Below are positions 3,601 through 58,105 of a DNA stretch of 64,000 nt, piece by piece. Under the pieces are notes generated by a model. It was not told the DNA's origin and did no database searches. It saw only the letters and a list, made by a program, of their open reading frames with translations. This DNA is from a bacterium (GTDB taxonomy: Bacteria > Oederibacteriota > CAKKQC01), in assembly GCA_919901855.1 (NCBI GenBank), contig CAKKQC010000038.1, positions 105,298 through 169,297 of the forward strand. Reading direction: 5' to 3'. Position 1 is the stretch's first letter. Each line of letters starts with the position of its first letter. The position numbers and the translations under genes are program-made.

Positions 3601-6568
3601 CGACGCCTGGACGACCGCCCCGTCCATTTCCGTGGCGAGAACGGTTCATGGAGGGGCGACCGCTGATGGAGTGGTCTACGTCTTTGGCGGCAGCAATGGT
3701 GGAGGTCTGTATTCACTGGAAGTGGGCACCCTCGGTTGCACGCCGTCTCCATCCGCTCAACTCGCCGCGGCGCTCTCGGTGAGCCCGGCGGTGTCGGCGA
3801 CGGGGCAGACGGTGACCGTTCGGCTCACGGTGACGAACACGGGGTCGGGGGTGGCGAACGGCGTAACGCCCGTGATCCGGGTGAGCGCGGGGGCTTCGCT
3901 CGTGACGCTGGCGACCGGGCCTATTCCGGCCAGCGTTGCCAGCCTGGCCGCGGGGACGGCGACCAACTTCGTCTGGACGTACACGACGTCCACGAGCGCG
4001 GGCGGGGCGGTCGAGTTCTCGGCCACCGGTTCGGGCACGGATGCGGGCACGGCGGCGTGGTTGAGCGCGCAGGCGACGGCGGGGCTGACGGTCAGCACGC
4101 CGCCGGGGACCATCACCTGGGTGACGCGCGCGCCCATGCCCACGGCCCGTCAGTCTCTTGCCACCTCGGCCGTGGGCGGCACCATCTATGCGATTGGAGG
4201 ATATGACGGATCATCAATTGTGGCGACGATGGAGGCCTATGGTTCTTCAGCCAATACCTGGAACACGAAAGCTCCCATGCTCACAGCTCGTCAGGCTCTC
4301 GCAGCTGCCACGCTGGGCAGCACGATCTATGCGATTGGGGGAGCCAGCCCCAATGAAATCGCGACAGTGGAGGCATACGATCCTGCGACGAACACTTGGA
4401 GCGCGAAAGCTCCGATGTCCACGGCCCGCTTTTCTCTCGCAGCTGTGGCGGTGGGTGGCAAGATCTATGCGATGGGAGGACAAGCGAACGGCTGCGTCAT
4501 CAGTTCAGTGCTGGAGGCGTATGATCCCGCGACGAATTCGTGGACTACAAGAGCCAGCATGCCCACGGCTCGTGGCAGCCTGGCCGCCGCCGTAGTGGGT
4601 GGCACCATCTACGCGATCGGAGGAACTGCATGCGGCCCGAGTCTTGCCACGGTGGAAGCGTATGATCCTGCGACGAATTCGTGGACCACGAAGGCCAGCA
4701 TGCCCACGGCTCGGCAGGGCCTGGTCGTTGCCGTAGTGGAGGACATCATCTACGCGATTGGGGGATTCGGCGCGTCCAATCTGACTACGGTCGAGGCGTA
4801 CGATCCCGCGACGAATACCTGGACGGCCAATGCTTCGATGCCCACAGCCCGCGCGAACTTGGGAGTCGGGGTGGTGGGTGGCACCATCTATGCGATCGGG
4901 GGACAGAACGGGTCACCCCTGGCGACAGTGGAGGCGGGGTACGTGGGGGCCTATGTCCCGCCGGCGACGAGTGCCTCACTCGCCGCGGCGCTGTCGGTGA
5001 GTCCGGCGGCGTCGGCAACAGGGCAGACGGTGACCGTGCGGCTTACGGTGACGAACACGGGGAGCGGCGCGGCCAATACCATCGTCCCGGTGATCCGCGT
5101 GAGCACCGGGGCGTCCCTCGTGACGCTGGCGACCGGGCCGACGCCGGCTAGCGTGGCCAGCCTCGCCGCGGGTACCGCGACCAACTTCGTCTGGACCTAC
5201 ACGACGTCGACGACCGCGGGCGGGACGGTTCAGTTCTCGGCGACAGGATCGGGCACGGATGTGGGCTCCGCAGCCGCGCTGAGCTCGCAGGCCACCGCCG
5301 GGCTGACGGTCAGCATGCCGCCCGGGACGATCATTTGGTCCACGCGCGCGCCGATGCCCACGGCTCGCATGTACTTCGGTGCCGCGACGGTCGGCGGCAC
5401 GCTCTATGCGATCGGCGGTTCGAATACCGGAGGCTACGAAATGGCGACGGTGGAGGCGTACGATCCTTCCACGAACTCGTGGACCACCAAGGCGCCGATG
5501 CCCACGGCCCGCAGGTACCTCGCTGCCGTGGCGCTTGGAGGGCTGATCTATGCCATCGGGGGCGATGTCTACGCGTCGCCATTCCGCTACGCGACGGTGG
5601 AGGCCTACGATCCTGCCACGGACACATGGACGACCAGGACTCCCATGCCGTCGGCCCGCGGGGCGCTTGCCGTGGCGGTGGTGGGCGGAACGATCTATGC
5701 GATTGGCGGGTTCAATCCCGGCGCGCTTTCGACGGTGGAGGCTTATGATCCGGCAACGAACACATGGACGGGGAAGGCGGCCGTGCCCACGGCTCGTACC
5801 GGCCTGGCAGTTGCGGCCGTGGGCGGCTTGATCTATGCGATCGGGGGAGACAACGGGTCAGCCTTGGCGACGACCGAGGCATACGATCCGGCCGCGAATA
5901 CTTGGACTACCAAAGCTCCCATGTCGACGGGCCGGGGAAACATCCTTGCAGCCGTGTCGCTGGGCGGCATCATCTACGCGATGGGGGGAGCCACCGGGAT
6001 CGGCGCGACTGTTACGGTGGAAGCGTACGATCCGGGCGCGAACTCGTGGACTGCCGAGGCCCCCATGTCCGCGCCTCGTTATGGTCTTGCGGCGGCGGTG
6101 ATCGGTGGCACTATCTACGCGATAGGGGGATATGACAACATCCCGGTAGCACTCGCAGTGCTGGAGGCGGGGTACGTGGGGGCCTATGTTCCACCGGCTG
6201 GCGGTGGAACCGGCCCCGGCACCGGGACGACGACGGAGCCCGTGAAGCCACCTGCGGCGGACAAGGTGGGGAAGGGCTCGATGCTGGCGGCGCCGAACGT
6301 GCTGGACCCCGGCGATCCCGCGAGCAAGGTCGTGTTCACGTTCAAGGGCAACGCGGGCGGGCACGTCGACGTCGACATCTACGACGAGATGGGCCTGCAC
6401 TTGGGGACGCTCAAGGGCACGGTGAACGGGACCGGGACGGGCACGATCACGCTGGACACGCTCGTACTGAACGGGCGCAAGCTCGGCACCGGCGTGTACT
6501 GGGCCGTGGCGCAGGGTGGCGGGGTGAACGCGAAGCGGCAGTTCGCGGTCGTGCGGAGGAAGAAATAA
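671..6568 (+). CDS. Giant secreted kelch-propeller / CARDB exoprotein with FlgD-like C-terminus
   Basis: About 1965 residues. An N-terminal signal peptide (Arg-rich n-region, hydrophobic core, TPAAA cleavage region) precedes 30 kelch motifs of about 48 residues (MPTAR...GGTIYAIGG...VEAYDPATNTWTTK). They group as five six-bladed propellers at roughly residues 52-345, 346-620, 740-1025, 1150-1430 and 1555-1855. CARDB-like Ig domains (VRLTVTNTG...FVWTYTT) separate propellers 2/3, 3/4 and 4/5. The last 95 residues (APNVLDP...VDIYDEMG...LGTGVYWAV) resemble the FlgD-Ig/type IX sorting-domain fold. A GTG at 671 sits 9 nt after a TACCAT box, the leaderless pattern seen elsewhere here; an in-frame ATG at 650 would add 7 residues. 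The stop overlaps the next start (TAATG). Likely a surface or secreted binding protein; its ligand is unknown. Confidence 0.85.
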   Translation: MPKGRASTGNQRDCRTGLGARLRRTSAGCLALGSLAAALYLPTPAAATDPTWSTVAPMPTARWLLASARIGGTVYAIGGSPSSGYLATVEAYDPATNTWATKTPMSGGRSGLAAVAIAGTIYAVAGDNGSRLTTVEAYDAATNTWVAKTNLPGSTRAFCAVAAVGGTVFVMGGENNGPILSTVQAYDPVTNTWATKAAMPAARWGLAAATVGATIYAIGGVSGTMILTTVGAYDPATDTWTTKADMPTARYDLKVVVVGGTVFAVGGTNGTCQTAVEAYDPATDTWTVMSPTSLGRQGAGAESVGATIYVMGGTTTSGGAGGLQSSMEAGSVAGYSAPAGPPYPNWVPRASANAVSYQRGGVAVGATLYLLDDAGNLESYNPATDSWTTRGPVPFPGTLYGIASIGGTIYVTGGYSGTYLNSLYAYDTNTGTWSTKASMAGARNVVGAVAVGGSLYAVGGGRGSAVSDLEVYDPATDTWTTKASLPVAKSVYGGVAAVGGTIYAISGFEPVLLVDTVYAYDTATDTWTTKAPVPTPVYAHSAVAVYGRIYVAGGIDVNGHTTNYVDSYDPATDTWTVGRGMGTPREYLGMAAIGNTIYAVGGGYSGALSSLEAGWVPGDQAGSVASLKAALSVSPAVSATGQTVTVRLTVTNTGTAAATGVTPVIQVTSGGSSVAFASGPVPASVGSLAGGSSATFVWTYTAVTCGTAKLSATATGTDSGGSGAISASSSGSAVVVGPYLTWAAGASMGTARQYVAGAAVGGTVYALGGNLGTPPGLASVEAYDPATNTWTPKAAMNAGRNNLAATSAAGKLYVIGGYDNGTSLASMEVYDPAMNMWTTKAPMSAARFGLAAATVGGTVYAVGGADSGGTYVATVEAYDPNTNTWTTKASMPAAVMNPGAVEVGGTVYVIGGTTVASSATAAVEAYDPATNTWTAKASLPTGRSWPVVFPAAGKIYVVGGYDGVSYVSSVAVYDPATDAWTTAPSISVARTVHGGATADGVVYVFGGSNGGGLYSLEVGTLGCTPSPSAQLAAALSVSPAVSATGQTVTVRLTVTNTGSGVANGVTPVIRVSAGASLVTLATGPIPASVASLAAGTATNFVWTYTTSTSAGGAVEFSATGSGTDAGTAAWLSAQATAGLTVSTPPGTITWVTRAPMPTARQSLATSAVGGTIYAIGGYDGSSIVATMEAYGSSANTWNTKAPMLTARQALAAATLGSTIYAIGGASPNEIATVEAYDPATNTWSAKAPMSTARFSLAAVAVGGKIYAMGGQANGCVISSVLEAYDPATNSWTTRASMPTARGSLAAAVVGGTIYAIGGTACGPSLATVEAYDPATNSWTTKASMPTARQGLVVAVVEDIIYAIGGFGASNLTTVEAYDPATNTWTANASMPTARANLGVGVVGGTIYAIGGQNGSPLATVEAGYVGAYVPPATSASLAAALSVSPAASATGQTVTVRLTVTNTGSGAANTIVPVIRVSTGASLVTLATGPTPASVASLAAGTATNFVWTYTTSTTAGGTVQFSATGSGTDVGSAAALSSQATAGLTVSMPPGTIIWSTRAPMPTARMYFGAATVGGTLYAIGGSNTGGYEMATVEAYDPSTNSWTTKAPMPTARRYLAAVALGGLIYAIGGDVYASPFRYATVEAYDPATDTWTTRTPMPSARGALAVAVVGGTIYAIGGFNPGALSTVEAYDPATNTWTGKAAVPTARTGLAVAAVGGLIYAIGGDNGSALATTEAYDPAANTWTTKAPMSTGRGNILAAVSLGGIIYAMGGATGIGATVTVEAYDPGANSWTAEAPMSAPRYGLAAAVIGGTIYAIGGYDNIPVALAVLEAGYVGAYVPPAGGGTGPGTGTTTEPVKPPAADKVGKGSMLAAPNVLDPGDPASKVVFTFKGNAGGHVDVDIYDEMGLHLGTLKGTVNGTGTGTITLDTLVLNGRKLGTGVYWAVAQGGGVNAKRQFAVVRRKK

Positions 6569-10190: not shown

Positions 10191-10252
10191 TGGGGCCATA
10201 CTTAACAAATTAACATTCGCCGGCGAATGTTAATTTGTTAAGTATGGCCCCA
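10191..10252. repeat. 62-bp perfect palindrome (element P1), GGGGCC-ended
   Basis: Two 30-nt arms starting TGGGGCCATACTTAAC are perfectly complementary around CG. The AT-rich arms stand out in a GC-rich genome. It sits between the convergent queD-like and Gfo/Idh genes. A near-identical copy lies at 49695-49752. A 13-bp segment (GGCCCCAGAGGCT) at its right end is repeated in tandem at 10246-10270. Confidence 0.9.
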
Positions 10253-28475: not shown

Positions 28476-29866
28476 TGCGCCGGATGCTGGCCCTTCTCCT
28501 GGCCGTGACCGCCGGGCGCGCGGTCGCGACGTCGACGGCCAAGCCGTTGAACCTGCCGATGAGCGTCCGCCAGATGGGGATGGGCGACGTCAGCGCCGCG
28601 GGCGCGGACACGCTCCGGGCATGGAGCAACCCCGGCATCCTGGGCTGGCAGGAGTCCCGCGGCGAGGTCGCGATCAACGGGTCGTCCCTGTTCGGCGCCG
28701 AGGCCACGACGATGGGATTCGGCGCGGGCTGGGCGTTCACGCCCGAGATCACGGGCGGCCTCCTGGTCTCGACCTACTCGGTTTCGTTCGACCAGGTCGA
28801 CGCGACGGGCGCCTCCACCGGGGCGGCGCTGTCCCAGCGGTCGATGGCCGTCGGGCTCGGCGGCGCGTACCGCAGCGGCGTAATTGCGCTTGGCGCCACG
28901 GTCAAGTTCGTCTCGGATTCCGTGGGCGCGATCGGGGCGTCCTCCGCGGCCGCCGACATCGGGCTGGCCGCCAGCACCCCCAACGGCGTCAGGGCCGGGC
29001 TCGCGTACCGCAACATCGGGGGCACGCTCGGGACCCCGGTGGTCGCGGGCATCTCGACCGACGGCATGCCGGGGGAGTTCCGCGCCGGGGTGGCCTACGC
29101 CTACGCGCCGCTCAAGCTCACGGGTGGCGTCGAGTACTCGATGCCCGTCGACGCGGACGCGCGGGCGGGGCTCGGCGCGGAGTGGTGGCCGGTGCCGATG
29201 GTGGCCCTGCGCGCCGGGATGTCCGGCCTCCAGGCGACCCAGCGCCAGCTCACGTTCGGGCTCTCGGCGGTTTTCAGCGGCATCGGACTCGACTACGCGC
29301 TCGGCAGCCATCCGCTGGGCCCCGTGCATCGGTTCAGCCTCTCGTACCTGTTCGGCGCCTCGGCCCGGTCGGAGACCTCCGCCGCCGAACCGGCGCTGGC
29401 GGAGGCGCCGGCCGCGCCGGCCCCCGCTCCGGCCGCCATGGCCCCGGCCCCGAAGCGGACTGCGGCCGCCCGCAAGGTCGCGGTGGCGCCCTTCGCGTCG
29501 GCCGAGCTCTCCGACGTCATGGACGCGGAGTCGGTCGCCTCCGAGCTCCGGACGGATCTTGGCCGGCGGGCGACCCTGTACGTGCTCGCGCCGAAATTGG
29601 TCGAGGCCGCGGCGAACGGACGGGGCATGCCCCGCCGGTGCACGACCGAGGACTGCGCGGTCCAGTTGGGCAAGGCCCTCGCGGCCGACGGCGTCGTCCT
29701 CGGCGCCTACGAGAAGATCGGGGGATCGACCGTGCTGAACCTCCGGCTGGTCACGGTCGCCTACGGCGACATCCTGGTCAACGAGACGGTGAAGTGCGAC
29801 AGCGAGGAAGGGATCCGGGCCGCCCTGGGCGCCTTCGCCGGCCGCGTCGCCAAGGCTCTCAAGTAG
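28475..29866 (+). CDS. PorV/UPF0164-like outer-membrane barrel fused to diverged CsgG-like domain
   Basis: 463 residues with a signal peptide (LLLAVTAGRAVA). The barrel (residues 25-300) has the same landmarks as the protein at 6568: MSVRQMGMGDVSAAG, AWSNPGIL, GLDYALGSHPLGPVHRFSLSYLFG. An Ala/Pro linker (about 305-330) joins a CsgG/TolB-N-like domain (KVAVAPF, RCTTEDCAVQLGK, VVLGAYEKIG) that keeps the C-T-x-(D/E)-C-A motif but has diverged from the other two copies. It overlaps the 5438-residue exoprotein gene by one base and presumably serves it, as a secretion or anchoring partner in the outer membrane. The stop codon touches palindrome P2. Confidence 0.8.
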   Translation: MRRMLALLLAVTAGRAVATSTAKPLNLPMSVRQMGMGDVSAAGADTLRAWSNPGILGWQESRGEVAINGSSLFGAEATTMGFGAGWAFTPEITGGLLVSTYSVSFDQVDATGASTGAALSQRSMAVGLGGAYRSGVIALGATVKFVSDSVGAIGASSAAADIGLAASTPNGVRAGLAYRNIGGTLGTPVVAGISTDGMPGEFRAGVAYAYAPLKLTGGVEYSMPVDADARAGLGAEWWPVPMVALRAGMSGLQATQRQLTFGLSAVFSGIGLDYALGSHPLGPVHRFSLSYLFGASARSETSAAEPALAEAPAAPAPAPAAMAPAPKRTAAARKVAVAPFASAELSDVMDAESVASELRTDLGRRATLYVLAPKLVEAAANGRGMPRRCTTEDCAVQLGKALAADGVVLGAYEKIGGSTVLNLRLVTVAYGDILVNETVKCDSEEGIRAALGAFAGRVAKALK

Positions 29867-29923
29867 GGACGTACTTTCAATTCTGCGATTCCCGGGGGAA
29901 TCGCAGAATTGAAAGTACGTCCC
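29866..29923. repeat. Palindrome P2, GGGACGTACTTT-ended, 28-nt arms
   Basis: Perfect 28-nt arms around a GG centre. The first base is the last base of the barrel gene's TAG stop. It lies between that gene and the cysS promoter, both on the plus strand. There is no T-tract on either side. Confidence 0.9.
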
Positions 29924-39637: not shown

Positions 39638-40482
39638 CCGATCTCGGGACCGCGCGCGAGCGGTGCCGGGAGATCGCGCTGCGGCACTACGAGAACTTCC
39701 CGGTGGGGCGGTACGGGGTGCCGAAGGAGCAACAGCCCGACATCCACGCGATCTACGCGTTCGCCCGGATCGCGGACGACTTCGCCGACGAACCGCGGTT
39801 CGAGGGAACCCGGCTCGAGCGGCTCGACGAGTGGGGGGCGAAGCTCGAGGCCGCCGCGAAGGGGGAGGCCGTGGACGAGCCCGTTTTCGTCGCCCTTGGC
39901 GATACGATCAGGCGGCGCGATGTGCCCGTCCAGCTCCTGCGCGACCTGCTAGGCGCGTTCCGGCAGGACGCGGTGAAGCAGCGCTACGAGACCTGGGACG
40001 AGGTCCTCGACTACTGCACCCGGTCGGCGAATCCGGTGGGGCGGCTCGTGCTGTGGGTGACGGACCATCGCGACGGCGCGCTCCTGCCGTATTCGGATGC
40101 CCTCTGCACGGGGCTCCAGCTCGCGAACTTCTGGCAGGACTTGTCCGTGGATCACGCGCGGGGGCGGTGCTACATCCCGAAGGCGGACGCCGTGGAGGCT
40201 GGCGTGGATATCGAGGCGCTTGTCCGGGGGGAATCGCCCGAGGGCATTGCCTCGCTCCTGGATGCGCTCGTGGGCCGCACGCGCGAGCTGTTCGACGGGG
40301 CGTTGCCCCTCCCGCGACGGCTCCGGGGGCTCCTGCGCTACGAGATCGCGGCGACGTGGAACGGCGGCCGGATCATCCTCGAGCGGACGGCGGCGCTCGG
40401 GGCGCGCGCTCTCCAGGTGCGGCCGTCGTTGACGGGAGTGGACAAGATCATGATCCTGGTGAGGGCGCTGAGGTATCCTTAG
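39634..40482 (+). CDS. hpnC: Squalene synthase subunit HpnC (hydroxysqualene synthase-type)
   Basis: 282 residues of the squalene/phytoene synthase fold. The first Asp-rich motif is AFARIADDFADE (about residues 41-52). The second site is LANFWQDLSVDHARGRCYIP (about 160-179), a variant of the usual DxxxD motif. HYENFPVGRYGVP near the N-terminus is typical of HpnC. In the three-step route HpnD makes presqualene diphosphate, HpnC makes hydroxysqualene and HpnE reduces it to squalene. The partners lie 5.8 kb away at 46281-48430. The GTG at 39634 gives the usual length; an upstream GTG at 39550 would add an unlikely Pro/Gly-rich extension. Exact subunit assignment rests on resemblance. Confidence 0.88.
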   Translation: MTDLGTARERCREIALRHYENFPVGRYGVPKEQQPDIHAIYAFARIADDFADEPRFEGTRLERLDEWGAKLEAAAKGEAVDEPVFVALGDTIRRRDVPVQLLRDLLGAFRQDAVKQRYETWDEVLDYCTRSANPVGRLVLWVTDHRDGALLPYSDALCTGLQLANFWQDLSVDHARGRCYIPKADAVEAGVDIEALVRGESPEGIASLLDALVGRTRELFDGALPLPRRLRGLLRYEIAATWNGGRIILERTAALGARALQVRPSLTGVDKIMILVRALRYP

Positions 40483-40488
40483 AGAGAT

Positions 40489-40530
40489 GGGCCTCCGCAT
40501 GCTCAAATGGTTGGAGCAGCGGGCTCATAT
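40489..40530 (+). repeat. Truncated 5-prime half copy 1 of the CAU tRNA
   Basis: Starts GGGCCTC, continues with a D-arm-like segment (GCTCAAATGGTTGGAGC) and ends GCGGGCTCAT, exactly at the anticodon. It differs from the intact gene by a few bases between acceptor strand and D-arm. No 3-prime half follows. Confidence 0.75.
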
Positions 40531-40548
40531 GGCATCATTGGAACAACT

Positions 40549-40632
40549 GGGCCTCCGGCGTCCGTTGCGGAGACGCAACGTACGCCGCGGGCTTGAAGCC
40601 CGTATGCTCAATGGTTAGAGCAGCGGGCTCAT
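40549..40632 (+). repeat. Truncated 5-prime half copy 2 of the CAU tRNA with a hairpin insertion
   Basis: Begins GGGCCTC (40549-40555), is interrupted by about 48 nt holding two hairpins (40557-40586 with a GAGA loop, and 40588-40602), then resumes with GCTCAATGGTTAGAGC and ends GCGGGCTCAT at 40632. As in copy 1 it stops at the anticodon triplet. The D-arm segment is identical to that of the intact gene. Confidence 0.75.
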
Positions 40633-40742
40633 GAGTCGTCCGAAAATCGATGGGCCTCTAGCTCAATGGTTAGAGCAGCGGGCTCATAATCCGTAGGTTC
40701 CGGGTTCGAGTCCCGGGGGGCCCATCGATTTTCGGACGACTC
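40633..40742. repeat. 24-bp perfect inverted repeat enclosing the tRNA gene
   Basis: 40633-40656 (GAGTCGTCCGAAAATC...) is the exact reverse complement of 40719-40742. The arms include the outer base pairs of the acceptor stem, so the precursor RNA would extend the acceptor helix well beyond the discriminator base. Confidence 0.9.
40652..40724 (+). tRNA. tRNA with CAU anticodon (elongator Met or lysidine-type Ile2)
   Basis: 73 nt without encoded CCA. The acceptor stem GGGCCTC/GGGGCCC (one G-U) is intact. So are the D-arm GCTC...GAGC, the anticodon loop CTCATAA on the stem GCGGG/TCCGT (with G-U ends), and the T-arm CCGGG-TTCGAGT-CCCGG. Discriminator base is A. The anticodon reads Met AUG, or Ile AUA if TilS converts C34 to lysidine. 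The first pair G1-C72 argues against initiator tRNA. Two truncated 5-prime half copies lie just upstream. Confidence 0.92.
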
Positions 40743-40773: not shown

Positions 40774-40792
40774 GTGCCGCCTTCGGCGGCAC
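40774..40792. terminator. GC-rich hairpin downstream of the tRNA
   Basis: GTGCCGCC-TTC-GGCGGCAC is a perfect 8-bp hairpin about 50 nt after the tRNA. It has no T-tract, so it would be at best a weak terminator or processing structure. It overlaps one possible start (GTG 40774) of the next gene. Confidence 0.35.
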
Positions 40793-42393
40793 GGGCGGTA
40801 ATCCGTAGGAGAGGGGAGAGGGAGCTGAAGAGCAGGATTCTGATCGCAGGGGTCGGAGCGGTTGTCGCTCTTCACGCGTGGCTGGCGGTGGAGAACCTGA
40901 CCATGGACGGGGACACGCTCCGGCTCGCCGGACAGGTCGCGCAGACGGCCAGCCTGCGCGACGCGTGCTGCCTGCTCGGCCCCAAGACCGTCCTCTATCC
41001 CCTCCAGCCGCCATTCCTGTGGGCCGCGGCTTGGGGCGGCGCCCTCGTCTGGCCCGGCTGGAACCCGCTGTCAGCGGCCCGGCTGGCGACGATCCTCGCC
41101 CTTGTTGCCATCGCGTGGCTCCTCGCCCGCCTGGCCGGGGACGCGGGCGCGGGGCCGGGGGGCCGGGCCGTGGCGGCCGCCTTCCCGTTCTGCTGGCACG
41201 GCTTCTCGTTCCTGGTCGGTTCGTGCGACGACAACGTGGTCACGGACGCCCTCCGGCTCGCGGCCGTTTTCGCGACGACCCGCTGGCTGGCCTCGCCGCC
41301 GGGCGGGCGCCGGCACCTCGTCGCGGGCGCCGCGCTCGGGGGCGCGATGCTCTGGCACTTCCAGTCGGTCCTGCTCTTCCCCGCGGTCGCGATCGCGGGG
41401 CTGTGGGAGTCCGGGCGCGAGGGATCGTCCCGGCGGCGCGAGATCGCGGTGGCGCTCCTCGCCGGGGCCGTCATCTGGGCGGCCGGCGTGGGGGGCTCCG
41501 TGCTCGCCGGCCGCGGTCCGGCGCCGGAGCTTTCGGCTCTCGCGCGGGCCACGGTCGAGAACCACCGCGAAGGCAGGCTCTGGGCTCCGCGCTCCGCGCG
41601 GACCCCGGCGACGCAGGCCGCCGTGGTGGGCGAGGGCTGGAGCCGCATGATCCTCGGCTTCGACTGGCTGAGGCCGGCGGGCGGCGCGGTCGCGGTCGCG
41701 ATGGTTGTGGCGCTGGCGACGATCCTGGGCGTCGGGTGCGCGGTCGTGCTCGCGGGCACCCCGCTGGGGCGGGTGCTGGGCCCGGTCGTCGCGATCCAGT
41801 CCGCGCACTCGTTCCTGTACGAATCAGAGAGCATCGAGCGGTGGGACCTGCCGGTGATGGTCTCGGGGCTCGCCCTCGCCGCCGCCTTCGCCGCGTGCCG
41901 CCGTCGCACCGCGAAGCCGAAGGCTTCGTGGGCCGGGTCCGTCCGCGGACCCGCTGGCTCCGTCCTCGGAGCCGGGGGCGCCGCGCTGGCCGTGGCTCTG
42001 GTCGCCTGCAATGTGACCGCGTACGTACGGTTCGCCCGCGGGGCCGAGTCCGCGTTCCTCGACGTAGTCGAGGGCCGTCGGACGATCGCGGAGCTCAATC
42101 TTGATTGCGTGGGGGCGCACTGGCGGCTCTGCCGCGTGGCGCGCGGGGTCGCGCTCGAGGCCGGGCCCGGGGACGCCTTCGCCGGCATGCTCCAGGCGAA
42201 GGTGCCGGACGTCTTCCACCAGTACTGGCTCACGAGCTGGTGCACGGCCTACCTGATCTGCTACGCCCCCGGGTTCCTCCAGCGGCCGGCCGCGCGCCCG
42301 CTCTGGATCAGCCTCCTCCGCGCCCCGCCGCCATCCCACGTGATCCTGCGTCAGGAGGGATTCGTCTACCTCGCCGCCGCGCGACGCCCCTAG
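40774..42393 (+). CDS. Polytopic membrane protein, GT-C/mannosyltransferase-like
   Basis: About 520-540 residues with roughly ten hydrophobic segments. An N-terminal anchor (ILIAGVGAVVALHAWLAV) is followed by a loop with an acidic pair (TMDGDTLRLAG), the position where GT-C glycosyltransferases carry a catalytic Asp. A C-terminal soluble stretch of about 110 residues ends the protein. The profile recalls ArnT/PMT-like lipid-linked sugar transferases, but no diagnostic motif is certain. The start is unclear: GTG 40774, ATG 40759, or CTG 40825, which has a strong purine tract (GGGAGAGGGAG) in front of it and begins at the membrane anchor. The stop shares CTAG with the convergent DUF6807 gene. 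Confidence 0.65.
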   Translation: MPPSAARAVIRRRGERELKSRILIAGVGAVVALHAWLAVENLTMDGDTLRLAGQVAQTASLRDACCLLGPKTVLYPLQPPFLWAAAWGGALVWPGWNPLSAARLATILALVAIAWLLARLAGDAGAGPGGRAVAAAFPFCWHGFSFLVGSCDDNVVTDALRLAAVFATTRWLASPPGGRRHLVAGAALGGAMLWHFQSVLLFPAVAIAGLWESGREGSSRRREIAVALLAGAVIWAAGVGGSVLAGRGPAPELSALARATVENHREGRLWAPRSARTPATQAAVVGEGWSRMILGFDWLRPAGGAVAVAMVVALATILGVGCAVVLAGTPLGRVLGPVVAIQSAHSFLYESESIERWDLPVMVSGLALAAAFAACRRRTAKPKASWAGSVRGPAGSVLGAGGAALAVALVACNVTAYVRFARGAESAFLDVVEGRRTIAELNLDCVGAHWRLCRVARGVALEAGPGDAFAGMLQAKVPDVFHQYWLTSWCTAYLICYAPGFLQRPAARPLWISLLRAPPPSHVILRQEGFVYLAAARRP

Positions 42394-48430: not shown

Positions 48431-49707
48431 ATACCAACCGGAAACTCATGGCCGAGGCGCGCCGGCATCTCGTCGGTGGCGTGAACAGCCCCGTCCGCGC
48501 GTTCGGCGCCGTCGGCGGCACCCCGCCGTTCATCGTGAGCGGCCGGGGGGCGCATCTGCGGGACGCCGCCGGCCGCCGGTACCTGGACTTCATCGGCGGC
48601 TGGGGGCCGCACCTGCTCGGCCACTCCCCGGCGCCGGTCGTGGCCGCCGTCCGGCGCGCGGTCGGACGGGGCACCAGCTACGGGATGCCGACTCCGGTCG
48701 AGGCCGAGCTGGCCGCGCTCGTGAAATCCGCCCTGCCCTCGGTCGAGAAGCTGCGGTTCGTGAACTCCGGCACCGAGGCGACGATGAGCGCGATCCGGCT
48801 GGCCCGGGCCGCGACCCGCCGGGACCTGGTGGTCAAGTTCGACGGCTGCTACCACGGCCACTCGGACGGCCTGCTGGCCGGGGCGGGATCGGGGCTCGCG
48901 ACCTTCGGCATCCCGGCGTCCGCCGGCGTGCCGAAGGCGTTCGCGCGGCTCACGCTCACGATACCGTTCAACGACGTGGCCGCCCTGGAGGACGTGTTCC
49001 GCCGGCAGGGACGTACAATCGCCGCCGTGATCGTCGAGCCCGTCGTCGGGAACATGGGCGTGATCGTCCCGCGCCCCTGGTATCTGGATTCCCTGCGGAG
49101 GATCACGAAAAGCCACGGTGCCCTGCTGATCATGGACGAGGTCATGACCGGGTTCCGCGTCGCCTGGGGCGGGGCGCAGGTGCGGGACGGGATCCGGCCG
49201 GACCTCACCACGCTGGGGAAGGTGATCGGGGGAGGCTTTCCCGTCGGGGCCTACGGCGGACGGGCCGACCTCATGGGGCTCGTGTCACCGGAGGGGCCCG
49301 TCTACCAGGCGGGTACGCTCTCCGGCAACCCGGTCGCGATGGTGGCCGGACTCGCGACGCTCCGCGCGCTCGCGAAGCGCGACTACGACGCGTTGGCGCG
49401 GACGACGGCTTCGTTCTGCGCCCGGCTGCGGGCGGCGGCGCTTCGTTCCGGGGCGGAAGTCTGGATCGGGGAGACGTGCGGCATGTTCACGATCTTCTTC
49501 ACGCGGGGCCCGGTGTGGAACGCCGCGGACGCGCGCAAGTCCGACACGCGCCGGTTCCGCCGGTTCTTCCATGCGATGCTCAAGGCGGGCGTGCTCCTGC
49601 CCCCGTCGCAGTTCGAGGCCGCGTTCCTCGGGTTCGCGCACACGAAGAAGGACCTCGATTACGCGGTGACCGCCGCCTCCTCCTCCTTCCGGGAGGGCCA
49701 TACTTAA
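48427..49707 (+). CDS. hemL: Glutamate-1-semialdehyde 2,1-aminomutase
   Basis: 426 residues. This PLP enzyme converts glutamate-1-semialdehyde to 5-aminolevulinate in the C5 heme pathway. Landmarks are the N-terminal HLVGGVNSPVRAF, NSGTEATMSAIRLAR (phosphate binding), DGCYHGHSDGLL, MDEVMTGFRVAWGG (Asp that pairs with the PLP ring nitrogen) and the Schiff-base lysine in TTLGKVIGGGFPVGAYGG. Its ATG overlaps the hpnE stop (ATGA). The last codons (GHT, stop) lie within palindrome P3, so the element has replaced the natural end of the gene. Coupling of heme and squalene genes in one operon is unusual. Confidence 0.94.
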   Translation: MNTNRKLMAEARRHLVGGVNSPVRAFGAVGGTPPFIVSGRGAHLRDAAGRRYLDFIGGWGPHLLGHSPAPVVAAVRRAVGRGTSYGMPTPVEAELAALVKSALPSVEKLRFVNSGTEATMSAIRLARAATRRDLVVKFDGCYHGHSDGLLAGAGSGLATFGIPASAGVPKAFARLTLTIPFNDVAALEDVFRRQGRTIAAVIVEPVVGNMGVIVPRPWYLDSLRRITKSHGALLIMDEVMTGFRVAWGGAQVRDGIRPDLTTLGKVIGGGFPVGAYGGRADLMGLVSPEGPVYQAGTLSGNPVAMVAGLATLRALAKRDYDALARTTASFCARLRAAALRSGAEVWIGETCGMFTIFFTRGPVWNAADARKSDTRRFRRFFHAMLKAGVLLPPSQFEAAFLGFAHTKKDLDYAVTAASSSFREGHT

Positions 49708-49752
49708 CAAATTAACATTCGCGGGCGAATGTTAATTTGTTAAGTATGGCCC
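49695..49752. repeat. Palindrome P3, second copy of element P1
   Basis: 28-nt perfect arms around GG. The arm sequence (GGGCCATACTTAAC...) is identical to that of P1 at 10191-10252; only the central bases differ. It lies between convergent hemL and the cNMP-binding genes and contains the hemL TAA (49705-49707). Confidence 0.9.
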
Positions 49753-54194: not shown

Positions 54195-54278
54195 GGGTCC
54201 AGGGGAGTCCAGGGAGTCCAGGGGACGCGCTTTAGATTTTAAGATTCTCGAGAATCTAAGAATCTAAAGCACGTCCCC
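54194..54278. repeat. Palindrome P4 with adjacent GTCCAGGG direct repeats
   Basis: Arms 54221-54249 and 54250-54278 (GGGGACGCGCTTTAG... / ...CTAAAGCACGTCCCC) match at 26 of 29 positions with no spacer. Just left of it, GTCCAGGG(G)A is repeated three times (54197-54224). It lies between convergent pyk and the HicB-like gene. Confidence 0.85.
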
Positions 54279-54321
54279 TGACGGTCCGCGATAGCGAGTC
54301 GGCCGACGACGCCCCTTTGGC

Positions 54322-57427: not shown

Positions 57428-58057
57428 ATGCGTGTGCGGGTGCTGATAGGCGGCAACGACGACTGGCACGACCTGGTCGGGGCGGGGACGATCCTGAAGG
57501 AGGCCCTGGTCGCGGCCGGGATCGAGGCCACGATGCACGTGGGCTGGGGCGAACAGCAGCGGGGCGGGCCGGAGACGTCGGCGCTCGTCATGTACACGAA
57601 CGGGATGCGGATGACGCCGCAGGACCAGGAGGCTCTTTGCGGGCTGGTGGCCGGCGGGCTCGGACTCGTCGCGATCCACACATGCGCGGTCCTGGCCGAG
57701 CCGCCCGAGTTCCACGCCCGATGGCTGGGCCTGATCGGGAACCGGTTCGTCCACCACCCCCCGTTCGCGAGGTTCGGGGTCTCGATCGACCGCGATCACC
57801 CCGTCACGCACGGGGTCGCCGGGTTCGAGATCGAGGACGAGCTCTACGTCACCGAGCCGTGGGGGGAGCCCATGGCCGTCCTCGCGACCGCGGCCTTCGA
57901 GGGCAAGCGCCACCCGATGGTCTCCGTCCGCGAGACCGGCCGTGGGCGCGTCTGCTACCTCGCCAACGGCCACGACGCCCGGGCGCTGCGCAATCCCGGG
58001 TTCCAGTCCCTGCTCCTCCGCGCCGTCCGCTGGTCCTCCGGGGACGTATTTAAGTAA
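57428..58057 (+). CDS. ThuA-like domain protein
   Basis: 209 residues. A ThuA (trehalose-utilisation-like) class I glutamine-amidotransferase-like fold: RVLIGGNDDWHD at the start, LVMYTNGMRMTPQDQEAL, GGLGLVAIHTC (about residues 74-84) and RFVHHPPFARFGVSI, HPVTHGVAGFEIEDELYV. Proteins of this type cluster with sugar oxidoreductases; their chemistry is not established. The last codons (GDVFK) and the TAA stop lie inside palindrome P5. The start ATG is 9 nt from a TATGAT box. Confidence 0.83.
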   Translation: MRVRVLIGGNDDWHDLVGAGTILKEALVAAGIEATMHVGWGEQQRGGPETSALVMYTNGMRMTPQDQEALCGLVAGGLGLVAIHTCAVLAEPPEFHARWLGLIGNRFVHHPPFARFGVSIDRDHPVTHGVAGFEIEDELYVTEPWGEPMAVLATAAFEGKRHPMVSVRETGRGRVCYLANGHDARALRNPGFQSLLLRAVRWSSGDVFK

Positions 58058-58093
58058 TTAAGTTACGCAACTTAATTACTTAAATACGTCCCC
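58040..58093. repeat. Palindrome P5, GGGGACGTATTTAAG-ended, 25-nt arms
   Basis: Perfect 25-nt arms around ACGC. It contains the ThuA stop TAA (58055-58057). Its right end CGTCCCCTCAGG (58087-58098) is repeated in tandem at 58099-58110, reaching the stop codon of the convergent NicO gene. Confidence 0.9.
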
Positions 58094-58105
58094 TCAGGCG
58101 TCCCC

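Follow-up and report, generated by a model that had tools for sequence, protein, structure and literature searches.

The tRNA-Ile2 locus

The window, which is the whole 64,000-nt stretch of DNA that was analysed, contains a tandem tRNA array. The array fills the gap between a squalene/phytoene synthase gene and a 544-aa open reading frame without a Pfam match, after which metabolic genes follow. Direct reading of the sequence gave the order half, half and full gene of tRNA-Ile2, all within 236 bp. The features of the locus are the following (positions in the window):

40474–40479, + strand: -10-like box TATCCT, ending 9 nt short of copy 1; probably the native promoter of the tRNA
40489–40528, + strand: copy 1, 5' part of tRNA-Ile2 (GGGCCTCCGCATGCTCAAATGGTTGGAGCAGCGGGCTCAT); ends after the CAT anticodon; D arm mutated
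40529–40548, + strand: spacer 1, 20 nt; no local template
40549–40632, + strand: copy 2, also a 5' part of tRNA-Ile2 that stops after CAT; no difference from the full gene in the D arm and the anticodon 5' strand
40556–40605, + strand: two-hairpin insert inside copy 2; 50 nt replacing TA
40633–40656, + strand: left arm of a perfect 24-nt inverted repeat; spacer 2 is 40633–40651
40652–40724, + strand: full tRNA-Ile2 gene (CAT), of which the genome gave no second copy; CCA not encoded
40719–40742, + strand: right arm of the perfect 24-nt inverted repeat
40774–40792, + strand: hairpin GTGCCGCCTTCGGCGGCAC; fold z = -3.7
40799–40809, + strand: possible remnant of a displaced tRNA 3' half, TAATCCGTAGG; suggestive only

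Copy 3 was recognized as a complete tRNA by the Rfam tRNA model (69.8 bits), and ARAGORN gave its anticodon as CAT. Isotypes were assigned by reading of the sequences. The tRNA of the array was predicted to be a lysidine-type tRNA-Ile2 and not a tRNA-Met, because elongator-like and initiator-like CAT tRNAs (L080 and L084) lie elsewhere.

Copies 1 and 2 both end directly after CTCAT, and copy 1 matches the full gene for one A further. Copy 2 consists of GGGCCTC, then 50 nt in the place of TA (a net gain of 48 nt), and then GCTCAATGGTTAGAGCAGCGGGCTCAT. The insert, which sits between the acceptor and the D stem, forms two hairpins, and the RNA fold of copy 2 had a z-score of -7.5. The earlier note had described three copies, of which the first two stop at the CAT anticodon and only the third is full, with a 48-nt insertion of two hairpins in copy 2. 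This description was borne out.

Three exact occurrences of the block GAGCAGCGGGCTCAT were found in the window; when up to 3 mismatches were allowed, the count was nine, against 2.95 expected. Within the 4.68-Mb genome, GGTTAGAGCAGCGGGCTCAT was found at up to 3 mismatches in this array only. Membership of the array in a dispersed repeat family was rejected, as no further copies were present in the genome. A search of the genome for further copies of the copy 2 insert returned only chance-level matches, and its classification as a dispersed palindromic (REP-like) repeat was rejected for the same lack of multiple copies. Separately, the window contains five long near-perfect palindromes (10191–10252, 29866–29923, 49695–49752, 54219–54280 and 58035–58098). 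GGGCCATACTTAACAAATTAACATTCGC is common to two of them, and others have GGGACGT-like ends. We take these palindromes to resemble those of REP-associated transposases.

Position of the probable promoter and absence from relatives

TAnnnT boxes were present at 29 of the 45 other tRNA genes of the genome, mostly 5–14 nt upstream. The spacing from TATCCT to copy 1 is usual for these genes. The best matches in front of copies 2 and 3 are less good, and the gene therefore appears to have started originally where copy 1 now lies.

In the other searched genomes of this phylum the array was absent, and where tRNA-Ile2 was seen in them, it was a single gene. The only genome of the same family (G001, 83% complete) gave no match to the Ile2 pattern, and a generic half-plus-full pattern found none of this kind in 384 genomes across the domain. 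For 42 tRNAs at the loci of relatives, upstream matches were limited to one tRNA cluster (L033). Viral contigs searched for the CAT array gave one chance match, which had no tRNA.

These results bear on a possible role of the halves as decoys, as half-tRNA RNAs (both proposed in the earlier note) or as a leader controlling tRNA-Ile2. Lying behind a probable promoter, the halves would be co-transcribed, and the region is strongly structured. However, a conserved functional array was rejected by its absence from the other phylum genomes searched; the D arm of copy 1 is mutated, copy 2 is interrupted by its insert, and the length of the 5' piece varies among other tRNAs of the genome. We therefore regard a function of the halves as very unlikely.

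No tyrosine recombinase was found on the whole contig, and the intervals between half and full gene, with spacers of 20 and 19 nt, contained neither integrase nor cargo. A group I intron, one of the possibilities raised in the earlier note, found no support: no Rfam intron model matched, the only Rfam matches in the window were two tRNAs, and nothing intron-sized is left.

The inverted repeat around the full gene

On both sides of the full tRNA lie the arms of a perfect 24-nt inverted repeat (40633–40656 and 40719–40742). The earlier note does not mention it, nor the -10-like box or the 11-nt TAATCCGTAGG. The segment 40633–40742 had a predicted fold of -72.8 kcal/mol (z = -9.9). At each of the other detected tRNA genes of the genome, such flanking complementarity was at most 8 nt. 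Spacer 2 is the exact reverse complement of the downstream flank of the tRNA, and the two arms and the start of the tRNA have the 7-nt sequence ATGGGCC in common.

These features are those expected from the main rival explanation, local template switching in replication with no mobile element. Synthesis would have halted at the anticodon arm, used the flank downstream of the tRNA as an inverted template, and resumed at the start of the tRNA by way of ATGGGCC. This would give a half, an inverted flank and a full tRNA, with copy 1 left from an older event. The near identity of the halves to the full gene also agrees with a local event.

Downstream of the full gene, TAATCCGTAGG (40799–40809) is an exact 11-nt match to the 3' half of the tRNA (shuffle p = 0.004 for any tRNA 11-mer there). 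It may be all that is left of a displaced 3' half, although the match is only suggestive. A full displaced 3' half of tRNA-Ile2 was sought elsewhere in the genome, and none was found.

Half-plus-full tRNA genes elsewhere in the genome

5' fragments were found at four of the 46 tRNAs, with cuts at positions 32, 36, 41 and 44, all in the anticodon arm or just behind it.

The tRNA-Cys gene is preceded at 72 nt by an exact 44-nt 5' copy (positions 1–44), which lies behind a TTGACA..TAGAAT promoter. A 9-nt first copy (GGCGGGATA) seems to be retained at this promoter. At tRNA-Gln, a split 5' half (1–32) with a 64-nt insert in the D loop is followed by 31 nt and then the full gene. The 3' part of a large serine recombinase gene (L313 7632–9503, contig C75) and the full tRNA-Gln gene overlap. 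This overlap is a side observation, to be set against the statement in the Islander paper that tyrosine recombinases are the only ones known to target tRNA genes (PMC4383910).

For tRNA-Ser(GCT), an exact 5' half (1–41) is located at C60:1082–1122, and the full gene follows 8 kb downstream, at C60:9175. The island between them (L305 1082–9265) contains an HNH endonuclease gene and a tyrosine integrase gene (PF00589) that reaches the full gene. It shows, still intact, the kind of element that leaves behind 5' halves with a cut in the anticodon arm. At tRNA-Glu, an exact displaced 3' half (31–72) lies about 0.9 kb downstream of the full gene. In the interval (L314 5290–6239, contig C27), GTGGGGACA repeats lie close to each end and no integrase is evident; it is possibly a miniature or decayed island.

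In the Cys, Gln, Ser and Glu pieces, the block starts at or next to tRNA +1 and ends in the anticodon arm, and the flanks differ. This suggested that the pieces are att copies and not simple tandem duplications. For the Ile2 array, simple tandem duplication was likewise rejected, as the flanks differ between copies. Repeated copying from a cleaved tRNA, another proposal of the earlier note, is not needed, because an att site that restores the tRNA must start near tRNA +1 and end at the crossover. Of the interpretations in that note, integration at the anticodon loop was the best supported, by the tRNA-Ser island with its tyrosine integrase and the half-plus-full arrays of tRNA-Cys and tRNA-Gln.

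The same loci weigh against local template switching. Local templates were sought for the Cys and Gln spacers and none was found; of all the spacers, including spacer 1, only spacer 2 has one. Template switching would also make coincidences of the two ends after CAT and of the starts at tRNA +1 at several loci, and it leaves the 8-kb tRNA-Ser case unexplained. We consider it possible but doubtful as the origin of the array.

An assembly or amplification artefact was also considered. The assembly is a draft of 91 contigs, and short inverted repeats can be chimeric. However, the array is short and lies inside a 169-kb contig, its copies differ by substitutions and the insert, and similar structures occur on other contigs and in other genomes. 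This makes an artefact extremely improbable.

Arrays in other organisms

A pattern of a half, 25–55 nt and a full CAT tRNA was scanned for in 85,000 species. It gave 30 records, of which about a dozen were true tRNA arrays.

In Proteobacteria, arrays of a half, about 33 nt and a full tRNA-Ile2 are the left ends of 7–16 kb islands, several of them just behind rpoD. A tyrosine integrase follows, and then, at the far end, the displaced 3' half, beginning at or nearly at GACTCATAATC. The islands were those of Thiobacillus (L124/L133), Neptuniibacter (L134/L125), Cellvibrio (L135/L126), Hahella (L127/L136, the two ends on different contigs) and Spongiibacteraceae (L128/L137). They carry a whole tRNA-Ile2, about 33 nt from the break, and the two halves of the broken gene are displaced, not rebuilt. 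In carrying a whole tRNA they are like the phages of tRNA-dependent lysogeny (PMC10865867), of which they are a non-phage-like counterpart. A BLAST search with an island end against E. coli genomes, plasmids and phages returned nothing or tRNA matches only.

The inserts in CPR genomes were tiny. In a Curtissbacteria MAG (L091, about 5335–5690), a tRNA(CAT) gene is nested in the anticodon of another tRNA: the outer 5' half comes first, then the inner tRNA between two inverted repeat arms, and then a hairpin and the outer 3' half. The outer halves have a matching acceptor stem. This locus and L119 have the order of the array described here (CTCAT, repeat arm, full tRNA, repeat arm), with perfect arms of 13 and 12 nt, respectively (shuffle p about 0). 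At L101, an inverted repeat around the tRNA was sought and was absent.

The recurrence of this order raised a further alternative, a minimal mobile unit in which a tRNA(CAT) gene lies between inverted repeat arms and is trailed by a hairpin. Such a unit would insert directly behind the CAT anticodon of resident tRNA genes and replace the gene that it breaks. The present array and the Curtissbacteria, Kazan and Kerfeldbacteria cases would be copies of such units. The nested tRNA of L091, which keeps the outer 3' half with a hairpin before it, and the size of the inserts, roughly 120–170 nt, are in line with this. On the other hand, very few cases were found in 85,000 species, the inserts have no sequence similarity to one another, no enzyme is known, and L101 has no such repeat. 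In the present array, moreover, the inner and outer tRNAs are nearly identical. We consider such a unit unlikely. If it were true, the tRNA gene itself would be the cargo that makes insertion survivable, across unrelated phyla.

Two further kinds of tRNA pieces were observed in the course of these scans. In the Bacteroidetes MAG SpSt-1193 (L285, L286 and L100), three tRNAs have half-plus-full arrays, and the D loop of the halves contains paired hairpins. A two-hairpin element is carried by two 5' halves of tRNA-Met, by those of tRNA-Ile2 and tRNA-Phe, and also by a displaced 3' half of tRNA-Phe. It has conserved ends (CCCG..CGAGGATCC..TCGGGA) and variable stems, and occurred only in these tRNA pieces in the 0.4 Mb sampled. 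A GIY-YIG-like open reading frame, recognized by eye, lies behind the tRNA-Ile2 of this MAG. The second kind was seen in viral contigs (L163, L166, L188 and others), as apparent circularly permuted tRNA genes. They run from a 3' half through a short loop to the 5' strand of the acceptor, the D arm and the 5' strand of the anticodon, and lack a full tRNA upstream. Of 80 viral contigs, as many as 37 passed a loose test for this order, several of them falsely. A literature search found no phage report of circularly permuted tRNA genes.

Comparison with known systems

Islands with 5' fragments, tandem islands and partial tRNA genes from integration are established. Among the 3919 islands of Islander, 159 have 5' fragments and 125 are in tandems (PMC4383910). 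The array is like the former in having a 5' fragment upstream of the full gene, in the same orientation and cut at the anticodon, and its two fragments are as in a tandem. In tDNA islands the crossover lies in the anticodon loop, the T loop or the acceptor junction, and the ends of both halves after CAT agree with this. Unlike them, the array has no integrase between fragment and full gene and no island DNA of at least 2 kb; its spacers of 19–20 nt are far below the 2-kb filter of Islander. The inverted repeat around the full gene is a further difference. With neither integrase nor cargo, the array is not an island by strict membership, and looks like the scar of one.

In tRNA-dependent lysogeny, insertion into a tRNA gene through a short core is survivable by means of the same tRNA carried by the phage, and tRNA-Ile2-CAT is among the targets (PMC10865867). 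The array has a full Ile2 gene, possibly brought by an element, beside broken Ile2 halves. In such lysogens the broken gene is not rebuilt and its displaced 3' half lies at the far end, to which only the possible 11-nt remnant TAATCCGTAGG would correspond. In contrast to these Actinobacteria phages, which have an integrase, it has neither a tyrosine integrase nor prophage genes, and its halves are nearly identical to the full gene. In Thermococcaceae and others, too, the integration of elements of about 9–23 kb has produced partial tRNA genes (PMC9897764). Both cases are partial tRNA duplications, whereas the copies of the array lie tens of bases apart and include two halves. What is unusual here is the probable collapsed double scar within 236 bp, the recurrence at several tRNA genes, and the inverted repeat.

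Interpretation of the array

We interpreted the array as a collapsed scar: integrative elements would have inserted at least twice in succession into the anticodon arm of a single tRNA-Ile2 gene. We give this reading a probability of roughly 65%. It was suggested by the copies, with their starts at or next to tRNA +1, ends in the anticodon arm and unrelated flanks, together with the other half-plus-full tRNA genes and the intact 5'-half island in the same genome, and the comparable proteobacterial arrays at the left ends of integrase islands. From these we infer that the halves came from islands and that cargo was lost, as well as how the inverted repeat arose and in which order the events took place.

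Each insertion would have split the resident gene after CAT and left the old 5' half in place with its native promoter. A working gene directly downstream would have been formed with sequence from the element, either a 5' half carried in the att site or a complete copy of the tRNA. The second insertion would have struck the copy left by the first, which would produce the order half, half and full. Later loss of cargo would have left the 20- and 19-nt spacers. Spacer 2 may be a templated insertion that filled a deletion junction at the ATGGGCC microhomology. Besides the microhomology, the exact match of this spacer to the inverted downstream flank points to such a filling. With the halves dead, the palindromic insert in copy 2 would have been tolerated.

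Several observations count against two insertions. The locus has neither integrase nor cargo, and the contig has no tyrosine recombinase. Spacers of 19–20 nt demand the near-total loss of two elements, and the exact inverted repeat requires an additional event. The two sides of the junction have about one base in common, unlike the core of a tyrosine integrase, and the displaced 3' half amounts to 11 nt at best.

The reading as a double scar suggests that an essential single-copy tRNA gene was replaced in place at least twice, with the record of the insertions still readable, and that several tRNA genes of this one genome hold the same kind of record. Such compact arrays escape island finders that demand an integrase and a minimum length. 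The proteobacterial islands suggest that the carriage of a whole replacement tRNA, known from actinobacteriophages, extends to other integrase islands.
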